DNA from: an uncultured Flavobacteriales bacterium
GTDB taxonomy: Bacteria; Bacteroidota; Bacteroidia; Flavobacteriales_E; Vicingaceae
Assembly (NCBI GenBank): GCA_905479995.1
Contig: CAJQON010000030.1
Span: 62,001 to 126,000, forward strand
Direction: 5' to 3'
Length of the DNA stretch: 64,000 bases
Shown: in pieces, positions 29,775-61,753 of the stretch
How positions within the stretch are numbered: the first letter of the stretch is position 1
Layout: each line of letters starts with the position of its first letter
The notes under the pieces: model-generated
The model's database searches: none
What the model saw: the letters and a program-made list of their open reading frames with translations, nothing else
What the model was told of the DNA's origin: nothing
Translations under genes and position numbers: made by a program

Positions 29775-32700
29775 TTATTGTGCCAATGTAAATCTTAAAC
29801 TAATTCCTGCATTGGTATTTGATGTCGGGAAAGTTGTTGAAATATAAGGTTTTGTAGAAACAAAGTCGTAAAACATTCTAATGTTTAAGGTTTTACTTAC
29901 TCTATAATCGGCAGTTAATTTTACAGAAAACACTCTAGATCCTGCTGTTAATTGATTCACTTCTTCTACTACTTTTCTAATTATAGTATTGTTTTTTCTA
30001 ATTACAAAATCAATTCTAGTATCAACATCACTCTTTACAACTCTATTTTTAGAGAATGGCATTCTTACTTGTCTAAATTTATAACCAGTACCAATAGACC
30101 ACTCACTTCCTTTTACCTCAGTAATTTGATTATTAGCCATACTTAAAGAAGCGTTTCTATCGCGTTTATATTCTACCCTAACTAACATGTTATTATGCAT
30201 TGTCATATCGGCTCCTAATAAAGGTGCAAATTGCTCAGACACAGAAACTGTAGATATTTGTAATTCTGGAATAAAGTTATTGGATATATCTCTAGCTAAT
30301 GCACCTTGATCGTTTTCTTCGTACAATAAATTAGATGTAAATGAACTTACATTTAAGGTAGATTTATACGAATGAGAAAGTGTAAATTTCTTAAATAGCC
30401 TGTTTACAAATTTCATCTTACTTAACCCATCAAAAGTTACTCTCCAGTTTGGCAATGGGATGTATTTAGTAAAGGATTCTAACGAAACGTCATCTCCACT
30501 TTTTCCTGAGTATGCAGCTACAAAAGTTGGCACCAATACATCTTGAGAAGTCCCTCCGTATCCATCTGAATAACCGGTTGGCGTACCAAATGAATTACCA
30601 TTTTCTAAGGCTAATCTTTGCGAAATTTTTTCTCTTTCAGCTAAGAAACTTGCAAAAACAGAAGATGATCTATCCAGTTCATTATCTCCTACAAAAGCTG
30701 TGTTAAATGACCAAAAGGACATACTAAAACTACCAGTTTCTACAGGTTCTACAAAATAATAGTCGTCTCTTAAATCACCTCCTAAAGTATCAACAAAAGT
30801 TGTTGGATCAATTTGAAAGAATTGTTGTGCTAAATTGGTAGAGTAAGTTCTATTGGCATTTAACTGTATTCGCAATGTTTTTATTGGCCTTATTGTAGCT
30901 CTAATGTTATAATTTTCGGAGAATGTTGTTGCGTAATTATATACCAATCCAGCGCTAGGATCATCAATAGTTGTCAACCATTCTCTTTGAGCTGCTGCCA
31001 AAGCAAAGTCGTCTTCTTGAATACCTGTAACAAAGTTAAATCCTGGAGCTTCAAAACCATCATTAAATCCAAGTAATTCTGTTTCATTTCCATAACCGGG
31101 CAATAGTGTTCCTCGGTTTCTAGTATAAGTTCCCGATATGTTTTTAGGGCTCATTAAAGTTAACCAAAATACATCCATTGGTTTAAATGGAAGTTTCTTT
31201 CTCCACAAATCTACCCTAGTTGTATCACTATCTTTAAACGATTTGTCATCAAATTTAATTTCTAAAGGAGGAAGTCCTGGTTTCCAACCTCTAGCTTTTG
31301 CATTTTCTGCTTGAGTTTTATTTTTGTTAGGTTTTAAATTGTTTTGTACTCGTCTTGTTTGACGCTCTCTTGCTCTTTTTTGTACTTTCTTTAAAAATCC
31401 AACTTGATTGTGCAGTTTGGTCATATTAAACTGAGAAGACAACGAGACTGTATTGGAGTTTTGGATGGTATGCCCTAATGAATCGGCACCAAGTGGAGCA
31501 CGCTGCCAATCATAGTTTCCAGAATATTTAGAGGTAAGAGTTATAAAATCTAAATAGGGTAATTTGTTAATTGGCACACCATAATTAATGTTAAAATTAT
31601 GCATGTAATGTGTGTTGGTTCCAAAGTCTCTTATGTTTTGCATTACTGTATCTTGCCATGATGCATATTCATCAGCATAATAGCTATCTACCCTACCACC
31701 TGTTTCAATGCCATTAAAGGTTAATGGCTCTTCAACAGTTGCATTATTGGTTGCATTAAAATCAAACTTAAGCGCTTTGGTTAAGTCGTATTTCAATCCA
31801 TAAATTCTGTTCCAATAAAAATGTTTTTGGTAATAGGTTGGCAAATTAAATGTAAAACCAGTATTGTTTCTTGTTCTTCTTTCAGAATACATTCTATCCA
31901 TATCGGTTTGGAACGTAAGCTGCTTAGGAGCAATAAAAAAGTTAAAATCACTAATTAGCTTGAAAGCTTTTTTAGACGCAAATTTACCCTTACTAAATGG
32001 CTTATAATTTTTAGGTTTGTTGCTAAATGCGTAGCCAAAACCTCCTCGATAATTTTTCTTATTGTCAAACTCAGTATTAATATCTCTGTATTTAGTTTCA
32101 GAAAAACCATAATTAAAGGAGAAGTTTGAAATGTCATAAAATCTAGATTTCTCCCTTCCTTCTGGCCTAATTTTTCTAACGTTGGTAAAGTTAATGCTCC
32201 TTCGTTTTGTATATTCTTGTGTTCGTTTACCAATAGAATCTCTATCAGATTGAGATAAAATATCGTTATTTAATAAGTCGTTCAATTCCAAATCAGGATC
32301 CAAAGGATTATAACGTGGAGTTACAACTCCTTCCGAAAGGTTGTAATACATAGGAATACTAATCCCTATCTTTTTAGGAATAAATTTACCTAATTCAACA
32401 CTTGTAGAAAGGTCATAACTTTTTCTTGTTTCTTGCTGACGCTCATTTAATTTTTGCTCTACACTACCCCAACCCGGAGTACTATAATCTCCAGCAATTG
32501 TTACATTACCTAAGTCGGCAATTTGTGTTGTAATTCGAGCTATAGAAGCCCAACCACCTTCATTATCAAATTCTGCCATTCTTAATTCATTCACCCAAAT
32601 TTCTGCACATTTAGCCAAACCATCATCTCCTGGAGATAATGGACTTTGTTTCGGATTTCTTATCCCTATCATAAATACCCTAACGCTACCAATATTAGGA

Positions 32701-35700
32701 TTCCCTTTAATCCGCATCGTGTTTTGACCATCCACTGCTTCGTAAGGCTTAATTAATTGAACTCCACTAGAACCATCCGACAACAAACTGTTTCTCAAAA
32801 TCTTCATGTCTGTTAACTTGCTAAATTGAAGGTCTATGTCATTTGCTTCTGGCCATACCACATATCGGTCATTTTCATTGCTATTGTTATCTGTATTGTA
32901 AGAGCCATTTGGAGTTATTGTTAATGGCACTTCATATTCGTAATAGTTATCATTAAAATCGGATCCCATTCTTATAAAAACCGATAAATCTTTATCTGCC
33001 AATGGAAAAGATGGATCACTTTCTTCAGCATGAATAAACATTTTTAAACGTTTGTATCTTCTAATATCAATGTCCATAACTTTATATGCACCTCTCGCAT
33101 TTCCATCATTTAAATTACAGACATCTAATACTAAAGATTGCTCGTTTAATTGCTGTACTGTACTTCCTGAGGATGGGTTTGGATTTATTTCTCTATCAAT
33201 TCCTGGAGGGATAATATAGTTAACTGGCGTTTTGTTACTATTTTCTTCAACGTTAACAGCTGCTATATTAAATGTCGTTTCATCATCATCATTCCCAATA
33301 AAATCTCCTGGACTTAATAAGTTTCCAGAATACTTTCTCCACTCTCCTCTAACTAACTCTAATCTTGCAAAACGTAATACTATTTCCTTGTCAAATCCTT
33401 TCATAAACATTCTCATAAAACGAATGGATTTAAAATCTTGAATATCTCCTATTACAGATTCCGGTTCTCTAATTGGAATTTTAAATTGATACCATCTAAT
33501 TCTTCTAGGAGTTCCATCCGGGGTTGTAACGGTTGTTTCTAATACATTGGTAATAAAGTTGTTTCCTACATTAGATGGATTTACATCTGATGGATTAAGG
33601 TTTACAGAATATTGGAAATAGCTCTCTCTAAAATCAAGGTTATTGTTGTTGTTAATGTCTTCAATATCTGGACGAGTAGTGGCTGATGTTGAGTAACTTT
33701 CTGTAAACTGATCTGATGTTGGCGAGTTACCCTCTAAACCATTAAACATTTTATACCTTCTCAAAATATCATACGCTTGAGAATCGTAAAATGAACTTCG
33801 GTAATGATTATAATTATCGGCAGAAGGATCCAAGTTACCATTTAAATCTGTTTGTGTACTAAAGTTTGGAAAGAATACACTTTCATCAGCATTGTTTAAT
33901 CCATCCATACCAATATCTTGGAAAGGACGAGTACTAGGGGTATTGTCGAAAGCATTTACCAAAGCCTGAACAGTTGGCACTCTACCCCAAATTGTGGTAT
34001 CTACCAAGTTAGCATTAGCACTATTTATTGCTGAAGTTGGAAGCCCATTTTCATACGATTTACGCGAATCTTTTAAAATATCTTCCGAAATATTACCTAA
34101 ATTAAAAAACAAGGTTCCTCCAGAATGGTTAGGATCTCCATCTTCATCATTAAATGGGTCCATTACCCAAAACTGAATAAATTCAACATTAGAAGATTCA
34201 AAATCGGTTGTTTCTACTTTTCTCATTATACCTGCCCATCTTGTTGCAGGGTTAATTAAATTACCAGAACCATCAAGTCCAGAACCAACTCCAGTTCCAT
34301 CATCAAAGTTATATGGCCCACGCTCATTTGGATAGTAAGCTAAATCCATAGTGGAAATATTTTGTGTTGTTCCGTTTTGCTGTGATTTAAATGGAAAAAC
34401 TTCGGTTTGTAAAACCTCTCTCATGTAGTGATTTGATTGCATAACTAAATCGTTGGAAATATGATTTGGAGTTCTTGAATCGTTTCTCCAGAATAATGGG
34501 TCAATGTTATACCATCCAAGTCTCGATCTATTAAATCCATATTCCAAGGTATTAGACAAAGGCAATTCTCCTTCAGGAAAAAGTGTAGGCTGTCCTTGTG
34601 GTGTAGAGGCCAATTTCCATTGAAAAACGGTTCTCATATCTATGGAAGACTGACTTCCTTCAAAATCATCTAAATAAGCTACTCCATCTTTGGTAATGGC
34701 CCCAGGGTTTCCTGGTAAAAGTCTAGCAAACTCTCCCTCTATGGTAATGCTCGATTTTTCTTTAGTACTATAAATTGGAAGCTTATCTGCCAACCTTGTT
34801 AAAAATGGAGCATCTCTTTTATAGGTTAAATCAAAACCAAAAACAGTATTATTAATCGGTTCATCGCCAATGTTAATCTTACTAGTTAACGGTCTTTCAG
34901 ATAGTTTTAAAATAGTACCACCTATGTTAAAATCATCACTTACTTTGTAATCAAACCTAGAACCCATTAACGTTTTGGTTTGAATATTAAATAAAGACTG
35001 ACTCTCTAATGAAATCTTTATTGGAGTTCCCGACTGTAAAATTCCTTCATTAATAATTCTTACACGCCCTAAGTTATAATCAACAGTAAAATCAACATTT
35101 TCTGTTAATGCAGCACCACCAGCAGTTACACTAACAGATCCTTCTGGAACGTTCATGGCATTTAACGAAATATCTGAAGTAGTAGCAGATGAATATTGTC
35201 CTTTTATTCTAAATCTATTTTTAGTTGCATCTTGCTCAGCCAAAGTTTGTGTGGTTACATAAAGCGTATCAAAAGCAAACTTATCTGCTGTTTGTTGATT
35301 AGAAAACTTACTTCTTAAATGAGAACCAAACGGTTCGAGTACAGGAAAATAAACCCTACCATTATTTGAGTTTATAGTTACACCGTTAATGTAATCAAAC
35401 ACTCCATCCGAGCTGGCCTGGTTGTTAGCATTTAATCGATCTAAATTTAACACACTAACCAATGGAAGTCCATTTACTTCTCCTTCTGGAATAAATGGAA
35501 TTTCTACTCCAGTTGCAGGGTTCATGTAAAACACATCTAAATAAAAATCGGTTGGTGAAATATTAAATGCACCAAGCGCATAAACATTCTTCATCATTAA
35601 ATCCCAAGTAGGAATTCTAGTATTTATAGTAGTTCCTTTTAAGAGTTTAACATAAAGTGCATCCTGTCCAGAAACTCCATCTGTAGAAAATTCACCAACC

Positions 35701-53129: not shown

Positions 53130-53996
53130 ATGCCTTCTTCTGACATAAATAAATTTGACATTGTTAAAAATAATCCAGACTGGATGTTCATTATTCGCGA
53201 CCTCAAATTTGACTATCAAGACTACGATGAATCGCATCCTCACAAGCACAAGTTTTATCAATTTATATTGTTTGAAAAAGGGGATGGCACTCATTTAATT
53301 GACGAGAAGGAATATCCACTCAAAGACAAATCCATTCATTTTATTTCTCCCAACCATGTCCATCTATTAAAAATTTCATCGAAAACAAAAGGAATTATAT
53401 GCATGTTTAAAGAAGACCTCTTTTACATCAACAATGAAACACAAAAATTTTTAAACGATTTAAATTTATTTTCAAATTGGAACAATCGTCCAACACTTAA
53501 AATAGATACTCATCAGTTTGAATCGTTTCACCAATTATTGGTTTCTTTAAAAAATGAGTACAATAGTCAAGAACGCAACAAAAATGAAGTTCTATTAATG
53601 CTACTTAAATTGTTTTTAATAAAAGCTTCTCGTTTAAGTTCTAAAAACAAAGAAAAAAAAGTAAGTAGGAAACAAATACTTATTGATCAATTCTTAGGAT
53701 TAATAGAAGAAAATCACGCCAACAATATCCCAGTAAATATTTATGCAAAACAGTTAAACATATCGGCTCCATATTTAAATAGACTCATCAAAGAATTTTA
53801 CGATAAAAATGCCAGTGACTTTATTAATGACAGAAACATTTTAGAAGCTAAACGTTTTTTAAAATTCTCCCCAAAATCAATAAAAGAAATTGCTTTTGAC
53901 TTGGGCTTTGATGATCCATCCTATTTTTCTCGATTTTTTAAGAAGAAAACAGAACTAACGCCACTCCAATATCGCAATCAAAACATTAAAAAATAA
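53130..53996 (+). CDS. AraC-family transcriptional regulator
   Basis: This 288-residue regulator has an N-terminal cupin-like sensing domain (HPHKHKFYQFILFEKGDGTH near residues 32-51, HFISPNHVHLLKI near 70). Its C-terminal AraC DNA-binding domain has two helix-turn-helix units: IPVNIYAKQLNISAPYLNRL near 210 and SIKEIAFDLGFDDPSYFSRFFKK near 250, with the TPLQYRNQ ending. The ligand is unknown; the HxxHxF pattern is common in this group. It is divergent from the acyl-CoA dehydrogenase gene and upstream of the heme-protein group, with a long inverted repeat between. Either neighbour could be its target. Confidence 0.9.
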   Translation: MPSSDINKFDIVKNNPDWMFIIRDLKFDYQDYDESHPHKHKFYQFILFEKGDGTHLIDEKEYPLKDKSIHFISPNHVHLLKISSKTKGIICMFKEDLFYINNETQKFLNDLNLFSNWNNRPTLKIDTHQFESFHQLLVSLKNEYNSQERNKNEVLLMLLKLFLIKASRLSSKNKEKKVSRKQILIDQFLGLIEENHANNIPVNIYAKQLNISAPYLNRLIKEFYDKNASDFINDRNILEAKRFLKFSPKSIKEIAFDLGFDDPSYFSRFFKKKTELTPLQYRNQNIKK

Positions 53997-54077: not shown

Positions 54078-54116
54078 TTTGTGCACTATTTGTGCAATTA
54101 GCAAATAGTGCACAAA
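54078..54116. promoter_or_regulatory. Perfect 15-bp inverted repeat, candidate operator
   Basis: TTTGTGCACTATTTG (54078-54092) is the exact reverse complement of 54102-54116, with a 9-base centre. TTTGTGCA occurs three times: 54078-54085 and 54089-54096 direct, 54109-54116 inverted. A perfect -7-like element TATTTTTG (54074-54081) overlaps the left edge, but no TTTG lies at the expected distance upstream. No T tract follows on the plus strand, so it is unlikely to be a terminator. It lies 62 bases before the first heme-protein gene and 82 bases after the AraC gene. Confidence 0.7.
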
Positions 54117-54177
54117 TTCAACATTTAGCCTAAACTTGATTTAGTTTAAAACTTATCATGCACTAAAACCAAATTCC

Positions 54178-55053
54178 ATGAAAATAAAATTACTTGCCGC
54201 CTTCACAATAACAGTTTGCTGTATAATTGCTATAACATTCACCCTAACTACATCAACCAAAGGAGCGTACATGGTTTACGCTCACTCTAATGGAAGTTTA
54301 GGAGGTTACACCAACTCCTTTAGAGATGCAAAATCTGCGCCAACAGGACAGGCTGCCAACTGCACAAGGTGCCATACTGGAGCCCTAAACACTCCCATTA
54401 ATACTGTTATGAGCATAGAGTCTCCTTTGTTAGTTGGGGGATATATTCCAAACAAGCAATACACCATAATTGTTAAAGCAAATAATATTGATCCTAGCAT
54501 TGAAAAAATTGGGTTTGAGGCAACTGTAGAACAGAACAATACTCCATGGGCAAAAGCAGGAACAATAATTATTACAGACCTTACAAGAACTCAAACCACT
54601 AACGCAGGAAATGCTATCACCCATAAAATTTTAGGAACAACAGTGAGCACAAGCAACAATATATCATGGAGTTTTGATTGGATTGCACCAGCGGCTCAAA
54701 CTGGACCAATTACCTTTTATGCTGCTTTTAACATTAGCAATAATGACGGAACTGAAAAATCAGACGCAATTTATACTCGCTCTTTTTCTGCAATTGAAAC
54801 AATAGAAACTGCTATACGCCATCCTAACAATGAAACTCCCTATATGATTTACCCAAATCCCGTAAAAGACTTTTTAAACATAAAGTCCACCCAACAATTG
54901 GACAAAATAGAACTATATAACACAGATGGGAAACGCATTTTTAGCGAAACAAACCCAAAAAAAATTGATCTATCCAATGAAGCTGCAGGAGTCTATTTTA
55001 TAAACATTACCCTAAACAATAAAACCAGCATACAAAAGCTCATTAAAAATTAA
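54178..55053 (+). CDS. Surface heme-motif protein: choice-of-anchor V/Reeler-like domain with type IX sorting domain
   Basis: This 291-residue protein has a hydrophobic signal segment (AAFTITVCCIIAITFTLT). Next comes GYTNSFRD...AANCTRCHTG near residue 62, with one CxxCH c-type heme motif. A beta-sandwich domain follows (KQYTIIVKANNIDPSIEKIG, WSFDWIAPAAQTGPITFYAA) of the choice-of-anchor V/Reeler-like kind. Last is a type A sorting domain (MIYPNPVKDFLNIKSTQ, AAGVYFINITLNNKTSIQKL). It is predicted to be exported through SprA and attached to the cell surface, possibly carrying one covalent heme. It is first of five plus-strand genes; the next is a paralogue. The family name is from memory; the motifs are directly visible. 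Confidence 0.83.
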   Translation: MKIKLLAAFTITVCCIIAITFTLTTSTKGAYMVYAHSNGSLGGYTNSFRDAKSAPTGQAANCTRCHTGALNTPINTVMSIESPLLVGGYIPNKQYTIIVKANNIDPSIEKIGFEATVEQNNTPWAKAGTIIITDLTRTQTTNAGNAITHKILGTTVSTSNNISWSFDWIAPAAQTGPITFYAAFNISNNDGTEKSDAIYTRSFSAIETIETAIRHPNNETPYMIYPNPVKDFLNIKSTQQLDKIELYNTDGKRIFSETNPKKIDLSNEAAGVYFINITLNNKTSIQKLIKN

Positions 55054-55213
55054 ACAACTTATAAATAGCAATCCTACAAATGGTTCTATTTGTCCTATTT
55101 TTAAATTATTTTTAGCCTTACCTTTACCTTAAACATAACAACCGAAGTTTTACATCATCACCAAAATGTAGAACTTGAATGCCAAACATTTTAAACTGAT
55201 TAAATTTAAAAAT

Positions 55214-56065
55214 ATGAAAACAAAATTACTTGCTACACTTATTTTAACTACCATTTTTGGAATGATTATTACGTTAACATCAACATTTTCAAGCTCAACA
55301 GCTCACTCAGCTTATGCCAGTACTGGCGGCAGCCCTGGAGGAAAGACCAACTCTCCTGGCGATGGAGCAAATTGTACTGGTTGCCACAATGGTACAATTA
55401 ATAATCCGAGCGTTTTTACCATGCAAATTGGTTCTGCAGGATTAAGCGGAGGATATGTTCCTGGACAAACATATACTATCGCTGCTGGAGTATCAGGAAC
55501 AACATCTGCCAAAATCGGTTTTGAAGCCACTGCAGAAGCTGATGCTAACAATGCAAAAACAGGAACCATTGTAATTACAGACGCTACTAGAACAAAAACT
55601 GAAAACGGTGGCACTGCAGCTACCCATACAGCGGCAGGAACTGTTGCTAGTGCTGGCGCAAATGCATGGAGTTTTGATTGGACCGCTCCTAGTGCTGGAA
55701 CTGGAGACGTAACTTTTTATGCTGCTTTTAATGTAACTGATGGTGCAGGAACAGGACTTGGTAACAGTAGCGGGGATCAAATTTTTACAAGAAGCTTTCA
55801 AGTTTCCGAAGCTACTCCTGCAGGAATTGAAGATTTAACTAATAACAGTTCTTTTAACACATATCCTAATCCAGTAGTTAGTCATGTTAACATTAACTCA
55901 ACCGAAGCAATAACTAAAGTTGAAATATTTAACACTTCAGGACAAATGATTTATGCTGGAAACGAATCAAACAAAATTGATTTATCAAAACAAGCAGCTG
56001 GAATTTATTTTGTTGGCGTAACTATTGATAGTCAACTAAGCATACAAAAAATAATTAAAAAATAA
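55214..56065 (+). CDS. Second surface heme-motif protein, paralogue of the preceding gene
   Basis: This 283-residue protein starts at the ATG at 55214; an in-frame TTG at 55175 is less likely. The order is as in the upstream paralogue. A signal segment is followed by SPGDGANCTGCHNG near residue 53 with one CxxCH motif, a Reeler-like beta domain (GYVPGQTYTIAAGVSGTTSA, WSFDWTAPSAGTGDVTFYAA) and a type A sorting domain (YPNPVVSHVNINSTE, AAGIYFVGVTIDSQLSIQKI). It is richer in Ala, Gly and Thr than its neighbour and lacks the insertion before the heme motif. The cytochrome-like lipoprotein follows after 2 bases, so they are co-transcribed. Confidence 0.83.
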   Translation: MKTKLLATLILTTIFGMIITLTSTFSSSTAHSAYASTGGSPGGKTNSPGDGANCTGCHNGTINNPSVFTMQIGSAGLSGGYVPGQTYTIAAGVSGTTSAKIGFEATAEADANNAKTGTIVITDATRTKTENGGTAATHTAAGTVASAGANAWSFDWTAPSAGTGDVTFYAAFNVTDGAGTGLGNSSGDQIFTRSFQVSEATPAGIEDLTNNSSFNTYPNPVVSHVNINSTEAITKVEIFNTSGQMIYAGNESNKIDLSKQAAGIYFVGVTIDSQLSIQKIIKK

Positions 56066-56067
56066 CA

Positions 56068-56421
56068 ATGAGAATAGTAATTATAGCGCTATTAAGCTGC
56101 TTATTTTTTTCATGTAAATACAACCAAGAAGACCCGTTTCCGTCTCCAGTTACTGGAGACGGATCTGGCTCTTCAATTACTTATACCAATTTTGCAAAAA
56201 GTGTAATCGACAACAATTGTGTTATTTGTCATGCTCCGAATATAACCTCTCCACAATCGCCATACCTCACCACCTACAACGAAGTAAAACAACAGGCTGA
56301 TAACGGCAGAATTCAAGCAAGATGCATAGACGGGCCTAGTTTTATGCCTCCATCAGGAAAAATGTCACAACCTATTATAGATACTTTGCAACTATGGATC
56401 AATCAAGGAGCACTGCAATAA
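56068..56421 (+). CDS. Small cytochrome c-like lipoprotein
   Basis: This 117-residue protein has a signal ending LFFSC (cysteine 16), an acceptable Bacteroidota lipobox, then a Gly/Ser linker. The cytochrome-like domain starts FAKSVIDNNCVICHAPN near residue 43, with one CxxCH heme motif. The segment GPSFMPPSGKMS near residue 92 offers a methionine as the likely sixth ligand, and the last helix is IIDTLQLWINQGA. This is the arrangement of small class I cytochromes c in Bacteroidota. It probably carries electrons at the periplasmic side or outer membrane. It sits between two surface heme-motif proteins and a YceI protein in one operon. Confidence 0.86.
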   Translation: MRIVIIALLSCLFFSCKYNQEDPFPSPVTGDGSGSSITYTNFAKSVIDNNCVICHAPNITSPQSPYLTTYNEVKQQADNGRIQARCIDGPSFMPPSGKMSQPIIDTLQLWINQGALQ

Positions 56422-56435
56422 TCAATTCATAAATT

Positions 56436-56981
56436 ATGAAAAAAATACTTCTATTACTTTCCATCGTTTTTGGAACGGCAACACTTTATTCTCAAGACCT
56501 ATACAAGGCAATTGATGGCAGCATTGCTTTTTTCTCGGAAACTCCAATGGAAAACATAGACGCTGTAAACAAAACATTAAAGGCTTTACTCAACACTAAA
56601 AATGGTGAAATGGCTTTTGTTGTTACCAATGTTGGCTTTGTATTTGACAAACCTCTAATGGGTGAGCACTTTAATGAGAACTACATGGAAAGTGACAAGT
56701 ATAAAGTCTCTATTTTTAAAGGTAAAATAACAGAAACAATAGACTACACTAAGAATGGCGAACATGATGTTACTGTTTTAGGAAGTCTGGATGTACATGG
56801 CGTTTCACAGGAACGTAGCATTACAGGCAAAGTATTAGTTAAAGATGGCACAATTATTCTTAACAGTAACTTTGACATCAAGTTAAAAGATCATAAGATT
56901 AAAATTCCTAAAATTGTAACTGAAAACATTGCTGAATTTGTTAACGTAAAAGTGAATATTACGCTCACGCAAAAAAAATAG
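56436..56981 (+). CDS. YceI family protein
   Basis: This 181-residue exported protein has a signal peptide (ILLLLSIVFGTATLYSQ) and a YceI lipocalin-like barrel. Strands are DGSIAFFSETPMENIDAVNK, GEMAFVVTNVGFVFDKPLMG, HDVTVLGSLDVHGVSQERSI and a terminal VNVKVNITLT. YceI proteins bind polyisoprenoids or similar long amphiphiles in the periplasm, and quinone-like ligands are known for some. Next to heme proteins, a quinone or isoprenoid role in electron delivery is an attractive but unproven inference. Gaps to its neighbours are 14 and 6 bases. Confidence 0.9.
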   Translation: MKKILLLLSIVFGTATLYSQDLYKAIDGSIAFFSETPMENIDAVNKTLKALLNTKNGEMAFVVTNVGFVFDKPLMGEHFNENYMESDKYKVSIFKGKITETIDYTKNGEHDVTVLGSLDVHGVSQERSITGKVLVKDGTIILNSNFDIKLKDHKIKIPKIVTENIAEFVNVKVNITLTQKK

Positions 56982-56987
56982 ACCTAC

Positions 56988-57884
56988 ATGAAATTTCATA
57001 TTACTCTTTTACTCCTTACTTGTTCGTTTGCTTGTTTTGCTCAAGATGATTTATTGGACATGTTGTCTAGTGAAACAGAAGATCAACAACCAGAAAAAGT
57101 AGCTTACACATTTAAAGCCATTAAGCTAATTAATGCCAACACGATTGAAACTACTAAGAAGAAAACGATGGACTTTAGAATTACACATCGTTTTGGAGAC
57201 ATGAAAATTGGTGAGCCAGAAGGAAAGCATACCTTTTGGGGAATGGATAATGCTGCAAACATTCGATTTTCATTAGACTATGGTGTTACCGAAAAACTAA
57301 GTATTGGAGTAGGTCGTAGTAAAACAAAAGAACATATAGATTTCAATTTAAAATTCCGCTTCTTAGAGCAAAAAACAAAAGGTATGCCCATATCTGTTGC
57401 TTATTTTACCAATGCAGCAATATCTCCAGTTGCAATTATTCCAGATGATGAATTTGCCAACCGCTGGTCGTATACACACCAATTAATTATTGCAAAAAAA
57501 ATTAGCCGCGGAATCTCATTAGAAATCTTACCGACTTTAGTGCATCGAAACTATGTACTCAACGATGTTCATCCAACAAACAACTCAACAGATGAAAATG
57601 ATCTTTTTGCCTTAGGATTTGGAGGAAGGTTTAAAGTTTCTAATCGAGTAGCTATGGTTTTTGACTACTTTTTACCTTTTTCAGATTTTAGAACTTCAGC
57701 CAATGATTATTATGATTCTTTCGGTGTAGGTGTTGAAATTGAAACTGGAGGACACGTTTTCCACATTAACTTGAGCAATTCTGCAGGAATCATTGAAAAT
57801 GATTTTATACCTGACACCAGAAGTTCTTGGGAAGATTCGGAGTACAAATTAGGGTTTAATATTTCTAGAGTTTTTAGTTTCTAA
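56988..57884 (+). CDS. DUF5777-type outer-membrane beta-barrel protein
   Basis: This 298-residue protein has a signal peptide (HITLLLLTCSFACFAQ). The core looks like an outer-membrane barrel: FKAIKLINANTIETTKKKTM and FRITHRFGDM near residues 38-70, then paired strands NIRFSLDYGVTEKLSIGVG and HIDFNLKFRFLEQ, to a C-terminal FNISRVFSF ending in Phe. The FRITHRFGD region is characteristic of DUF5777, recalled from memory; members often lie beside YceI and cytochrome genes in Bacteroidota. It may form the outer-membrane conduit or anchor for the group. Its stop overlaps the convergent O-antigen ligase-like gene by 4 bases. Function unknown. Confidence 0.8.
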   Translation: MKFHITLLLLTCSFACFAQDDLLDMLSSETEDQQPEKVAYTFKAIKLINANTIETTKKKTMDFRITHRFGDMKIGEPEGKHTFWGMDNAANIRFSLDYGVTEKLSIGVGRSKTKEHIDFNLKFRFLEQKTKGMPISVAYFTNAAISPVAIIPDDEFANRWSYTHQLIIAKKISRGISLEILPTLVHRNYVLNDVHPTNNSTDENDLFALGFGGRFKVSNRVAMVFDYFLPFSDFRTSANDYYDSFGVGVEIETGGHVFHINLSNSAGIIENDFIPDTRSSWEDSEYKLGFNISRVFSF

Positions 57885-59446
57885 TCCTTTTTTTCTTGCA
57901 ATAGCAATATGCTATTAAAAAAAGAAAAGAATACAATTCCGGCTTGAGATTCAAGCGTATCTTCAGTAAGCATAGATAATGCTATAATAATAAAAAATGC
58001 CAAATACAAAATGGATATTCTTTCTTTTGATTTAAAAAAAGGGTAAATCAAGTAAATCAAAATCCAACACAACCCAAACACTCCAAAACTCACTGCGTAA
58101 GTTACATATTGATTGTGAGCTCTTAAACGATGACTATCTGTTAGCATGGATTTTTCTAGATTATATTGCGTATCAAATGCCTCTTGAAGGTCTCCTGTTC
58201 CAACACCGAGCCAAAAATTATCAGCAAAAATATGTACCGCTGTTTTTAAATATGCCCATCGCATAACCACAGAGTGCCCATTAAAATCTCTCCCCTTTTT
58301 ATAGTTATCAAATTCCCAAATAATTTTGTTCAACCTTCTATCAACTGCATTCATTGAAAGGTAATTCACATTACTCACACCTTTTTCAATTGCCTCTATC
58401 TCACTAGGAGTTAAACGCAATATTGCAGCTTCATCTTTCAACTCTCCTTTAGAACTTAAAAACCGAACCAAGGTCGTTCCTAGCACCTGCCCTTTAAGAT
58501 CTTGCCCTTCAAACCTGAGTTTACTCCGCTTTTCCCATGCTTGTTTTAGTTCTTCCCGAGCTATATTCCTCCAAATAAAATAGCCGTTCTCTTTGTCATT
58601 TTTACGTTCACTATATGTATCGTGTTCATATAATGCTCCGTTTTCAGTTACTGTTTTAAACTCTTGCTCTCCAATATTTTGATCTCCATAAAACGAAGAA
58701 ATGCTATTGCTTACTACATAAATTGAGAATAACACAATAACTAAAGCTCCAGCCGCTGTTGATATTTTAATTGCCTTTTTATAAGATCGGAATACAATAA
58801 TGAGCAACAGCAATAACGTAGTAATAACTAGCACTACAATCCCAGTAAACATACTTGACAAAAACAAAAACACCGAAAGCCAAGCCGCAACAATTAACCA
58901 AACAAAACCATATTTAGGCACATCTTTTCTAAAGTAATAATAAACAGAACCGAAAATGGCAAAACAAATTTCTAATCCAAATCTAATGTGTGAGTTATAC
59001 CTTGACAATTCACGTTTATCTAGAATAACTTCATTGGTTGCGCCAAGCATAACAGCAATGCTCCACAAAGAAGAAAATATTACCCAAAACACATAAGCTT
59101 TAAAAACTAGTAGAACTTCTTTTTTTGTTAATGCTGGAAAGCTAGCAATAAGAAAAGGCAAGGAAAACAAGTGTAATTTCCGCCTAAGATCTCCACCCGC
59201 AAATTCAAAATTGGAAGTATTTAATAAACCCAATAAAGACAAAAAGAAAATAGAACAAAGTACCAAAGCGATTTTATTGTCATAAAACCGTTTGAATTTT
59301 TGCTTGTAATTTCCGGTAAATATCCAAAGTGCCAAAAGGCACAATTGTCCCAAAACCATTAACGGCTTTGAAACCGACAATCCTGTAGCTACTAGGATTA
59401 AGCAAAAAAGGTAAAGATTTCTAACTTTAAAAAAGGTTTTATACAC
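57881..59446 (-). CDS. Second O-antigen ligase family membrane protein
   Basis: This 521-residue protein has about ten transmembrane segments and the Wzy_C-type motif FWLGVGTGDLQEAFDTQYN with RAHNQYVTYAVSFGVFGL near residues 415-460, where the histidine of HNQYVT is the conserved one. Between about residues 245 and 400 lies an unusually long, highly charged extracytoplasmic loop (RKNDKENGYFIWRNIAREEL, EAIEKGVSNVNYLS). The start is GTG at 59446; no ATG fits before the first helix. It lies far from the glycan cluster, upstream of no sugar genes. It may polymerise or ligate a different glycan, or glycosylate protein as some WaaL-like oligosaccharyltransferases do; undecided by sequence. Confidence 0.82.
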   Translation of the reverse strand: MYKTFFKVRNLYLFCLILVATGLSVSKPLMVLGQLCLLALWIFTGNYKQKFKRFYDNKIALVLCSIFFLSLLGLLNTSNFEFAGGDLRRKLHLFSLPFLIASFPALTKKEVLLVFKAYVFWVIFSSLWSIAVMLGATNEVILDKRELSRYNSHIRFGLEICFAIFGSVYYYFRKDVPKYGFVWLIVAAWLSVFLFLSSMFTGIVVLVITTLLLLLIIVFRSYKKAIKISTAAGALVIVLFSIYVVSNSISSFYGDQNIGEQEFKTVTENGALYEHDTYSERKNDKENGYFIWRNIAREELKQAWEKRSKLRFEGQDLKGQVLGTTLVRFLSSKGELKDEAAILRLTPSEIEAIEKGVSNVNYLSMNAVDRRLNKIIWEFDNYKKGRDFNGHSVVMRWAYLKTAVHIFADNFWLGVGTGDLQEAFDTQYNLEKSMLTDSHRLRAHNQYVTYAVSFGVFGLCWILIYLIYPFFKSKERISILYLAFFIIIALSMLTEDTLESQAGIVFFSFFNSILLLQEKKD

Positions 59447-59466
59447 CGCTCTATTGGTTGGTTGTC

Positions 59467-61125
59467 TTATTTTTTAAATGTTCCTGCTAAAATAGATTGA
59501 TACTTAGCCGCATCATTCAAGGTTGAAATAGCTTCTTCTAAAACAGGATCATACTTAAGCGAAACTTCAACCTGTCCTTTTTGATAATGATATCTCGAGA
59601 CAATTTCATTCTCTAAAATCTGTTTGATCTCTTCCTTAAATTTATACAAATCATCTTTTTTATTATGATTTAATTTTTTTTGTAACGCAGCATACTCCTC
59701 TTTTACATCGTCAAAATATTTATCCGCTTTAGCTGCCTTTTCAAGCTCCACCAATATATCTTCACTTTCTGTTGTATAAGCATAGTCCTTATCTGCTAAG
59801 AAAGAAACAAAGTCTTCATAATTGGCATCGCTCAACTCAAACTCTTTTGCTGGACTTATAGAATCATGTTTAATTTTATAATTGGTAGCATAATCAAAAA
59901 ACAAGCTTTTTAATAATAAACTAGCCGAGATATCACTCAATGGCAACCCTTCTACTTTTAAATCTGGAGCAACACCCTTTCCATCAAAAACTGGTCGATT
60001 GCTTTTTAGCGTTTTGAATTCTGTAATCAAAGAATCTGGCACCTCTTCTGCTTTACCATTCGTTTTATTCGAATAATCTAATTTCTGAATACACCTACCA
60101 CTAGGCGTATAATATTTAGCAACAGTAATTTTTAACTTCGAATTGTAACTCAGCGGTAATACATTTTGCACCAAACCTTTCCCAAAAGATCGAGTCCCTA
60201 AAATTATTGCTCTATCATTATCTTGCAAAGATCCTGAAACAATTTCTGACGCTGAAGCAGAACCTCTATTAATCAATACTGCCAACGGAATTTCCATATC
60301 TACTGGATCATTTAAAGCCTTATAACTCTTGTTCCAATCTTTAATTTTTCCTTTGGTATAAACCACTTCACTTCCTTTTTCCAAGAAAAGATTTACAATG
60401 TTAACTGACTCAGTCAATAGTCCTCCACCATTCCCTCTTAAATCTAAAATAATCGATTTTGCATTTTGTTCTTTTAATGCCAATAAAGCCGACTTTACCT
60501 CAGCACTCGCTGACGAAGTAAATCCAGTTAACCGAATATAACCTACATCGTTTTTTACCATTCCATAATAAGGAACATCTTTAATCTTAACCTCTTCTCT
60601 AGTAACTACCTTGGTTAGAATTCCTTCAGTTCCTGGTCGTTCAATTTTAATTTCAACTGTTGTCCCTGGTTGACCCAATAAAAACTCTCTAATTTCATCT
60701 GAATTTTTCCCAATCGCTGTAATCCCATCTATCTCAATAATCTTATCTCCAGCAAGCAAACCTGCCTTATCTGCACCAAAACCTTCATAAGGTTCAGATA
60801 TCATTACCCTATCTTTTCGTGTTTGAATTAAAGCTCCTATACCACCATACTGACCAGTAGTCATCATCTTATAATCCTCCATCTTAGACTCTGGAATATA
60901 GTTGGTGTAAGGATCTAAAGATTCCAACATAGCATCAATACCTGTTTTCATCAACTCCCCCGGATCAGCGTCATCTACGTAGTAAATATTTAACTCTCTA
61001 AATAAAGTAGCAAAAATGTCTAGATTTTTAGACACCTCAAAATAGCTCTCCGTATAAGAACTAAACGAAATTGATCCAACCAATAAAGCTAGACCGATAA
61101 TAATTTTTTTGAAATGCTTCTTCAT
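59467..61125 (-). CDS. S41 family C-terminal processing peptidase
   Basis: A 552-residue exported serine protease. After the signal segment (KIIIGLALLVGSISFSS) there is a PDZ domain at about 85-170 (YGGIGALIQTRKDRVMISEP, AGLLAGDKIIEIDGITAIG). The S41 core follows (VGYIRLTGFTSSASAEVKSA, SIILDLRGNGGGLLTESV). The nucleophile serine is in NRGSASASEIVSGSLQDNDR and the general-base lysine in RSFGKGLVQNVLPL. A long C-terminal helical extension follows (about 400-552). It cleaves protein C-termini in the periplasm, comparable to Prc/CtpA. The order rnpA-yidD-S41 protease is common in Bacteroidota. Confidence 0.93.
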   Translation of the reverse strand: MKKHFKKIIIGLALLVGSISFSSYTESYFEVSKNLDIFATLFRELNIYYVDDADPGELMKTGIDAMLESLDPYTNYIPESKMEDYKMMTTGQYGGIGALIQTRKDRVMISEPYEGFGADKAGLLAGDKIIEIDGITAIGKNSDEIREFLLGQPGTTVEIKIERPGTEGILTKVVTREEVKIKDVPYYGMVKNDVGYIRLTGFTSSASAEVKSALLALKEQNAKSIILDLRGNGGGLLTESVNIVNLFLEKGSEVVYTKGKIKDWNKSYKALNDPVDMEIPLAVLINRGSASASEIVSGSLQDNDRAIILGTRSFGKGLVQNVLPLSYNSKLKITVAKYYTPSGRCIQKLDYSNKTNGKAEEVPDSLITEFKTLKSNRPVFDGKGVAPDLKVEGLPLSDISASLLLKSLFFDYATNYKIKHDSISPAKEFELSDANYEDFVSFLADKDYAYTTESEDILVELEKAAKADKYFDDVKEEYAALQKKLNHNKKDDLYKFKEEIKQILENEIVSRYHYQKGQVEVSLKYDPVLEEAISTLNDAAKYQSILAGTFKK

Positions 61126-61149
61126 AGTATCTATTTTTTATAAACTCGT

Positions 61150-61359
61150 TTAGGGAACTGGATCATGTCCTTGTCCGCCAAAAGGGTGACAAGAAAAAAT
61201 TCTCTTGAGGGCTAACCATCCGCCCTTAAATGGCCCATATTTTTTAATTGCTTCTATACTGTATTGAGAGCAAGTTGGTGTAAATCTACAACTTTGGCCC
61301 AAAATAGGAGAGATACTTAATTGGTAAAATCTAATTATTACAATAAATATTTTACTCAC
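61150..61359 (-). CDS. yidD: Membrane protein insertion efficiency factor YidD
   Basis: A 69-residue protein from the GTG at 61359 (73 residues if a GTG at 61371 is used). It contains the invariant cysteine-bearing core [30 protein letters not shown] and the [15 protein letters not shown] ending. YidD assists YidC-dependent insertion of inner-membrane proteins; an amphipathic helix binds it to the membrane. The start chosen overlaps the last codons of rnpA (GTGAGTAA), implying translational coupling. yidC itself is not in the window. Confidence 0.92.
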
Positions 61360-61753
61360 TAACTGTCCCACTCAGCTCTATTAAACGTGATAAAATTACT
61401 TTTATTTTCTCTTCAAGCTCCTTATATTCTAATATTTGTTTAGAACTATAAAGAAACATAATATCGTACCCAATCCCTTTGTTTTTTAGTTCTAATTTTA
61501 ATGCTCCATTATTTAATCGATAGGCTTCTCTCACTCTACGTTTAATTAAATTTCGAGTAACCGCTAACTTCACATTCCTTTTAGGTACACTTACTCCAAC
61601 ATTAATATATCCCTCTTCAACAGACTCTTTTTGTTGATAAACAATTCTTAACGGATAGGCATTAATTGTTCGTCCTTTTTTAAAAAGTAACTCAATCGTT
61701 TTCCTGCTCTTTAGCTTTTCAGCCTTGCCAAATGTATGTCGTATTGTTTCCAT
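61352..61753 (-). CDS. rnpA: Ribonuclease P protein component
   Basis: This 133-residue basic protein is the protein subunit of RNase P, which matures tRNA 5' ends. Family features are [20 protein letters not shown] at the N-terminus, the [29 protein letters not shown] region near residues 52-82 (RNR-type RNA-binding motif) and [10 protein letters not shown] perfect -7-like element TATCTTTG (minus strand, 61769-61762) lies only 9 bases before the ATG, without a TTTG at the -33 position. If real, the leader is nearly absent. rpmH is not adjacent. Confidence 0.94.

Follow-up and report, generated by a model that had tools for sequence, protein, structure and literature searches.

A DUF5777 barrel encoded with YceI and exchangeable redox proteins: a gene group that probably passes electrons at the outer membrane of Bacteroidota

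Introduction

What is the function of a gene group that combines single-heme proteins, a YceI lipocalin and an outer-membrane barrel in a bacterium of the phylum Bacteroidota? Bacteroidota are major degraders in the sea, in soil and in the gut, and to our knowledge little is known about electron exchange at their outer membrane. The question arises from a locus in the window, by which we mean the whole stretch of 64,000 nucleotides analysed here (contig CAJQON010000030.1 of an uncultured Flavobacteriales bacterium of the Vicingaceae). Five plus-strand genes at positions 54178-57884 encode two Reeler-type proteins with tails for the type IX secretion system (T9SS), followed by a lipoprotein with one heme motif, a member of the YceI family and a barrel of the DUF5777 family. 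The original prediction, made from the sequence of the window, had regarded these genes as a candidate surface electron-transfer system unlike any described, and in the open-access literature searched we likewise found no paper describing this gene composition. Taken as a whole, that interpretation is partly supported: the group is a conserved redox gene group, partly built for surface export, with a probable role in electron transfer at the outer membrane.

Results

A small redox protein, YceI and DUF5777 form a conserved core

The barrel of the window matched Pfam PF19089 (DUF5777) with 296 bits (cut-off 23.1) over profile positions 1-247 of 247. The family was present in 41 of the 46 genomes of the order and in 82 of the 198 sampled Bacteroidota genomes. 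We examined 149 DUF5777 loci (29 from the order, 79 named-genome loci, 40 from the phylum and that of the window) and observed that the gene run containing DUF5777 also contained a redox protein in 126, YceI in 113 and both in 96 of them. Since the profiles behind these counts had been built partly from the same neighbourhoods, the test was repeated with plain motifs. C-X2-CH or C-X4-CH was carried by 143 of the 550 small open reading frames (ORFs) lying within 2.5 kb of DUF5777, compared with 5 of the 398 that were more than 3.5 kb away (Fisher P 4e-31). In addition, YceI lay next to DUF5777 in 108 pairs, at a median distance of 7 bases. The core of cytochrome, YceI and DUF5777 is phylum-wide, older and wider than the original prediction assumed. 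The co-occurrence that the prediction proposed to look for is strong for these three families and extends, in scattered lineages, to the Reeler-heme proteins.

No mention of DUF5777 was found in the open-access papers searched. The search for YceI together with Rieske proteins in Bacteroidetes gave nothing relevant except an iron regulon of Bizionia, whose members include a Rieske and a cytochrome c gene group adjacent by locus tag (PMC9478572).

Different redox proteins occupy one genetic position

The redox position is usually filled by a lipoprotein cytochrome of 110-140 residues. In 119 orthologues the two Cys and the His were conserved in 100%, and a Met and a Trp in 99% each; the retention of Cys, Cys, His and Met identifies the family as a putative minimal His/Met cytochrome c. 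The heme motif was C-X2-CH in 61 and C-X4-CH in 47 of these proteins, the rest having a spacing of 3, 5, 6 or 7. Such variation is unusual within a single family.

In other loci the cytochrome is replaced by a Rieske lipoprotein (L151, 38.5 bits; L174, 31 bits; L154, L175 and others) or by a plastocyanin-type lipoprotein (L068, 37 bits; L069, 36.6 bits; L081). The redox position is thus interchangeable between heme c, Rieske and plastocyanin-type copper proteins. That a single genetic position accepts three unrelated folds with nothing but electron transfer in common argues more strongly than any other observation for a dependence of the barrel and YceI on an electron carrier. Moreover, in genome G075 the cytochrome and DUF5777 form one reading frame of 411 residues (on a single 4.5 Mb contig), and a second such fusion, in a genome of another family (G289), is 55% identical to it over 370 residues covering both domains.

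The predicted structure of the barrel

The DUF5777 model, predicted from 14 sequences, has 12 strands (predicted local distance difference test score, pLDDT, 83), and its best fold matches are the KdgM/NanC porins (Z 17-18). The conserved residues that strand parity places on the lumen side are mostly basic (R68, R93, K122, R159, K171 and R214). The YceI protein of the window reached 29.3 bits with Pfam PF04264 (cut-off 23.7), the N-terminal 40 profile positions being unmatched.

The surface Reeler-heme proteins are additions of particular lineages

Both Reeler-type proteins matched NCBIfam choice_anch_V (82-83 bits, cut-off 42) and carry T9SS type A tails (PF18962/TIGR04183) at their C-termini, with scores of 53 and 47 bits (cut-off 27). 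The type IX sorting domains claimed in the original prediction were therefore recovered, and SprA, a protein of the T9SS translocon, is encoded in the window itself (32274-33830, minus strand, corresponding to G000:C30:94274-95830; 550 bits). A cytochrome c assembly protein was found in the same genome. Pfam Reeler (PF02014) gave no match at E<=1 in either protein of the window, and it was reached by the orthologue in L079 with 31.8 bits (cut-off 21, E 2.4e-7). The top three PDB matches of the AlphaFold model of Reeler/heme-2 (pLDDT 74) were the F-spondin Reeler structures 3coo, 2zot and 2zou (Z 13.5, 13.0 and 12.5), followed by T9SS C-terminal domains (Z 11.6-9.5), other beta-sandwiches reaching only about 9. 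The model confirms the Reeler beta-sandwich fold in this window protein, and the Reeler-like domains of the original prediction held up. No paper on Reeler domains together with type IX secretion was found in the open-access literature.

The CxxCH of Reeler/heme-2 falls in a low-confidence segment before the sandwich, which is to be expected, because the prediction program does not place heme. Every one of 18 Reeler-heme proteins has a C-Xn-CH motif (n=2 in those of the window, up to 5 elsewhere). Nearly invariant in the same set is a His within the sandwich, His137 in alignment numbering, which is a candidate for the second heme ligand.

Reeler-heme genes adjoin the core in the genus of the window (G016, G017, G019, G021, G027, G028) and also in scattered lineages (L104, L105, L109, L112, L114, L135, L138, L225). 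Among the 198 phylum-sampled genomes a choice_anch_V protein occurred in 55, and it adjoined DUF5777 only in the window's own genome and in G086. This rarity marks the surface Reeler-heme part as an accessory, which the core is not. The Reeler-heme proteins are thus an addition of particular lineages, absent next to DUF5777 in most genomes. Other T9SS-tailed neighbours of the core are a plastocyanin (L064, L214) and a DOMON-like protein (L224; E 4e-5, below the Pfam cut-off).

Layout and neighbourhood of the gene group in the window

The five genes, their motifs and their order were found as claimed in the original prediction, including the exact gaps of 2, 14 and 6 bases among the last four genes (Table 1). 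Reeler/heme-1 and Reeler/heme-2 are separated by 160 bases, and Reeler/heme-1 may for this reason have its own transcript. Exactly one CxxCH is present in each of the two Reeler-type proteins and the cytochrome lipoprotein, and these three neighbours are the only ones with the motif among the 44 ORFs of at least 100 residues in the window; the chance that three random members of the 44 are neighbours is about 0.003.

Table 1. Features of the gene group and of the region preceding it (positions in the window)
Feature	Position	Strand	Basis
AraC-family transcriptional regulator	53130..53996	+	HTH_18 76 bits, AraC_binding 34 bits; upstream, same direction
Perfect inverted repeat TTTGTGCACTATTTG-9-CAAATAGTGCACAAA (15-bp arms, 9-base loop)	54078..54116		Intergenic, after the AraC gene and before Reeler/heme-1
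Reeler/heme-1: T9SS-exported Reeler-type protein (choice_anch_V), one CxxCH	54178..55053	+	Profiles; signal peptide and CxxCH by sequence
Reeler/heme-2: T9SS-exported Reeler-type protein, one CxxCH	55214..56065 (first ATG)	+	Profiles and AlphaFold model
Predicted monoheme c-type cytochrome lipoprotein (C51-X2-C54-H55, Met93)	56068..56421	+	Sequence and 119 orthologues
YceI-family lipocalin with signal peptide	56436..56981	+	PF04264; neighbour in 113/149 loci
DUF5777 outer-membrane beta-barrel, 12 predicted strands, putative basic lumen	56988..57884	+	PF19089 and model

The AraC-family gene is the probable regulator of the group. The switch that the original prediction called possible gains support from synteny, since three congeners (L076, L078, L079) have an AraC orthologue at the corresponding site. 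The gene itself lies outside the interval of the original prediction (54078-57884), whose first base is also that of the inverted repeat. The repeat is a candidate operator or terminator, and no second copy was found in the window. As a conserved operator it was rejected, no equivalent being present in the matching gaps of four congeners.

Inspection by eye revealed that in distant Bacteroidota (L117, L108, L110, L116, L120, L102) the module is followed by genes that read as HemD, RnpA, a CtpA-type protease and an O-antigen ligase. In the window the ligase, the protease and RnpA adjoin the module at 57881-61753 on the other strand, and this common flank points to an ancient locus passed on by descent. 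Also recurring beside the module is a small protein with an OB fold (PF12869 tRNA_anti-like, 78 bits in L067) (L065, L067, L082, L150, L208, L209, L214, L216, L219, L233).

Discussion

The explanation that we prefer, and to which we give about an even chance, is that the gene group encodes a Cyc2-like module of a small porin and a redox protein, which would trade electrons at the outer membrane with a compound that is small and probably an anion. At its core, a small redox protein, attached to the outer membrane or otherwise retained there, would be combined with a periplasmic YceI and the DUF5777 barrel of 12 predicted strands. The barrel would form a narrow pore whose positively charged lumen admits the compound, which would be redox-active. 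The redox protein would sit at one mouth of this pore and swap single electrons with the compound, as is thought for the heme and the porin of Cyc2. YceI could hold an isoprenoid (quinone-type) cofactor or a lipid and connect the redox protein to the periplasmic chain. In the lineage of the window, two surface-exported Reeler-heme proteins would carry the module to the outside of the cell under an AraC-type regulator. Heme loading, physical contact between the members, the direction of transfer, the ligand of YceI and the substrate are the parts of this proposal that we infer. The possible role of YceI as a quinone carrier is drawn by analogy from a YceI-type domain of Saccharophagus crystallised with ubiquinone-8, to which Cbp2D of Cellvibrio, also carrying c-type cytochromes, is related (PMC8981238, PMC12542752).

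Cyc2 is a monoheme cytochrome fused to a 16-strand porin (PMC8406198). The module resembles it in joining one c-type heme per protein to a porin-type barrel, by fusion in G075 and G289, where the domain order is that of Cyc2, and by operon elsewhere. In contrast to Cyc2, however, the cytochrome and the barrel are separate genes in the window, as in nearly all genomes; DUF5777 has 12 predicted strands instead of 16; YceI is a usual partner; Rieske and copper proteins are alternatives to the cytochrome; the predicted lumen is basic; and there is no link to iron oxidation. Thus, the module may work like a small porin-cytochrome, yet it departs from Cyc2 in strand number and in the absence of a fusion in the window.

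Several points weigh against the exchange of electrons through such a module. The barrel structure is a prediction from the 14 sequences; its lumen side was assigned by strand parity and not from coordinates; and neither DUF5777 nor the YceI of the window had a sequence match to solved structures. Nearly half of the cytochromes carry the unusual C-X4-CH, and heme attachment is predicted. YceI was without a recognised redox neighbour in 17 of the 149 loci and neither was present in 6 (some of these at contig ends), and no YceI gene was found in 13 of the 29 loci of the order. The sampled loci are, moreover, not phylogenetically independent.

The basic lumen and the likeness to KdgM and NanC, which are anion porins, would also fit a module for uptake and oxidation, in which DUF5777 would act chiefly as a porin for the anion of some reduced acid, inorganic or organic, with sulfite or thiosulfate as the first candidate, and the lipoprotein would drain electrons from an oxidising enzyme. 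The neighbourhood in three congeners is consistent with this: in L076, L078 and L079 the group is followed by a sulfite dehydrogenase of the SorA/SoxC type, which scored at most 238 bits in NCBIfam and did not reach the equivalog cut-off; a SorB-like cytochrome is also next in L078 and L079, and a rhodanese protein occurs there too, in L078 fused to a fatty-acid-hydroxylase-type domain. In other families a diheme cytochrome lies beside DUF5777 (L061, L062, L070, L145, L223). However, the window's own genome lacks any Oxidored_molyb protein, no oxidising enzyme is common to the other loci, and simple uptake needs no fusion of cytochrome and barrel, which makes this explanation unlikely. Sulfite oxidation as the general function was rejected on the absence of the enzyme family from the window's own genome, and sulfite remains a lead only, since the dehydrogenase is next door in three congeners and the own genome has none.

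A diheme c-type cytochrome of 340 residues with a conserved 'LCA..CS.GR' recurs beside or near DUF5777 in several families (L061, L062, L066, L070, L073, L085, L145, L220, L223, L247). Its identification as a TsdA/SoxA-type enzyme was rejected, as it had only generic cytochrome c matches in NCBIfam, Pfam and PDB.

The original prediction had proposed a surface wire running from a quinone held by YceI through the lipoprotein cytochrome and the barrel to the surface Reeler-heme proteins, which would reduce ferric iron or another extracellular acceptor. All members are there, exported and ordered as it stated, and one extracellular family, that of Cellvibrio and its Saccharophagus relative, has a YceI-type ubiquinone-8 domain together with c-type cytochromes (PMC8981238). 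In addition, acidic residues are enriched after the lipobox Cys of the cytochrome lipoproteins (62% at +4 and 46% at +7, compared with 29% and 20% in other nearby lipoproteins), weakly resembling the surface-export signal described for Bacteroidetes lipoproteins (PMC5080379). Nevertheless, each member has at most one heme motif and the barrel has none, which leaves no hopping path of the usual spacing; with one heme motif per protein and a narrow barrel of 12 predicted strands, hopping would not bridge the membrane, and the continuous chain through the barrel is not supported in the form proposed. The Reeler-heme genes are also missing beside DUF5777 in most genomes. We consider such a wire quite improbable. 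The analogy to quinone and ferric reductases from the Reeler domain alone was rejected as evidence, because the function of Reeler is not known even in the eukaryotic ferric reductases and CYBDOM proteins (PMC10691727).

Very unlikely, finally, is a role in outer-membrane maintenance, with a lipid-handling barrel or enzyme like LpxR or OMPLA, YceI for lipid and the redox protein for disulfide, metal or lipid-peroxide chemistry: the fold matches include LpxR (Z 15.9) and, lower, OMPLA (Z about 12), and the invariant H67, H186 and H256 of DUF5777 have lipid-facing parity near strand ends, but twelve-strand barrels look alike in general, and the swapping of heme, copper and iron-sulfur proteins would be left unexplained.

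The proposed electron-exchange module can also be set beside other redox systems. Like MtrCAB and PioAB, it has an outer-membrane barrel encoded with c-type cytochromes, whereas it contains no multiheme protein and its barrel is much smaller, so that there is no wire through the membrane. The exported redox system of Cbp2D/Cbp2E in Cellvibrio likewise combines a YceI-type domain with monoheme cytochromes; there, however, one multidomain protein has carbohydrate-binding modules and no barrel is involved, while here the proteins are separate and lack a carbohydrate-binding domain. The CYBDOM proteins (Reeler-DOMON-cytochrome b561; FRRS1/SDR2) have in common with it the Reeler fold and an extracellular redox context, to which the DOMON-like neighbour in L224 may be added, but here b561 is absent, the proteins are separate, and a c-type heme motif in the N-terminal segment of the Reeler protein is combined with a T9SS tail.

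More tentatively, one barrel with three exchangeable carriers (heme c, Rieske iron-sulfur and blue copper) across the phylum, and with surface outlets formed by Reeler, DOMON and plastocyanin proteins that the T9SS exports, could represent an undescribed class of electron exchange across the cell envelope. Should the proposed working of the module prove right, the phylum would have its own small porin-cytochrome, many genes annotated as 'YceI', 'cytochrome c', 'Rieske' or 'choice-of-anchor V' could be interpreted together, and its function would be testable in cultured Chitinophaga, Dyadobacter and Pedobacter.

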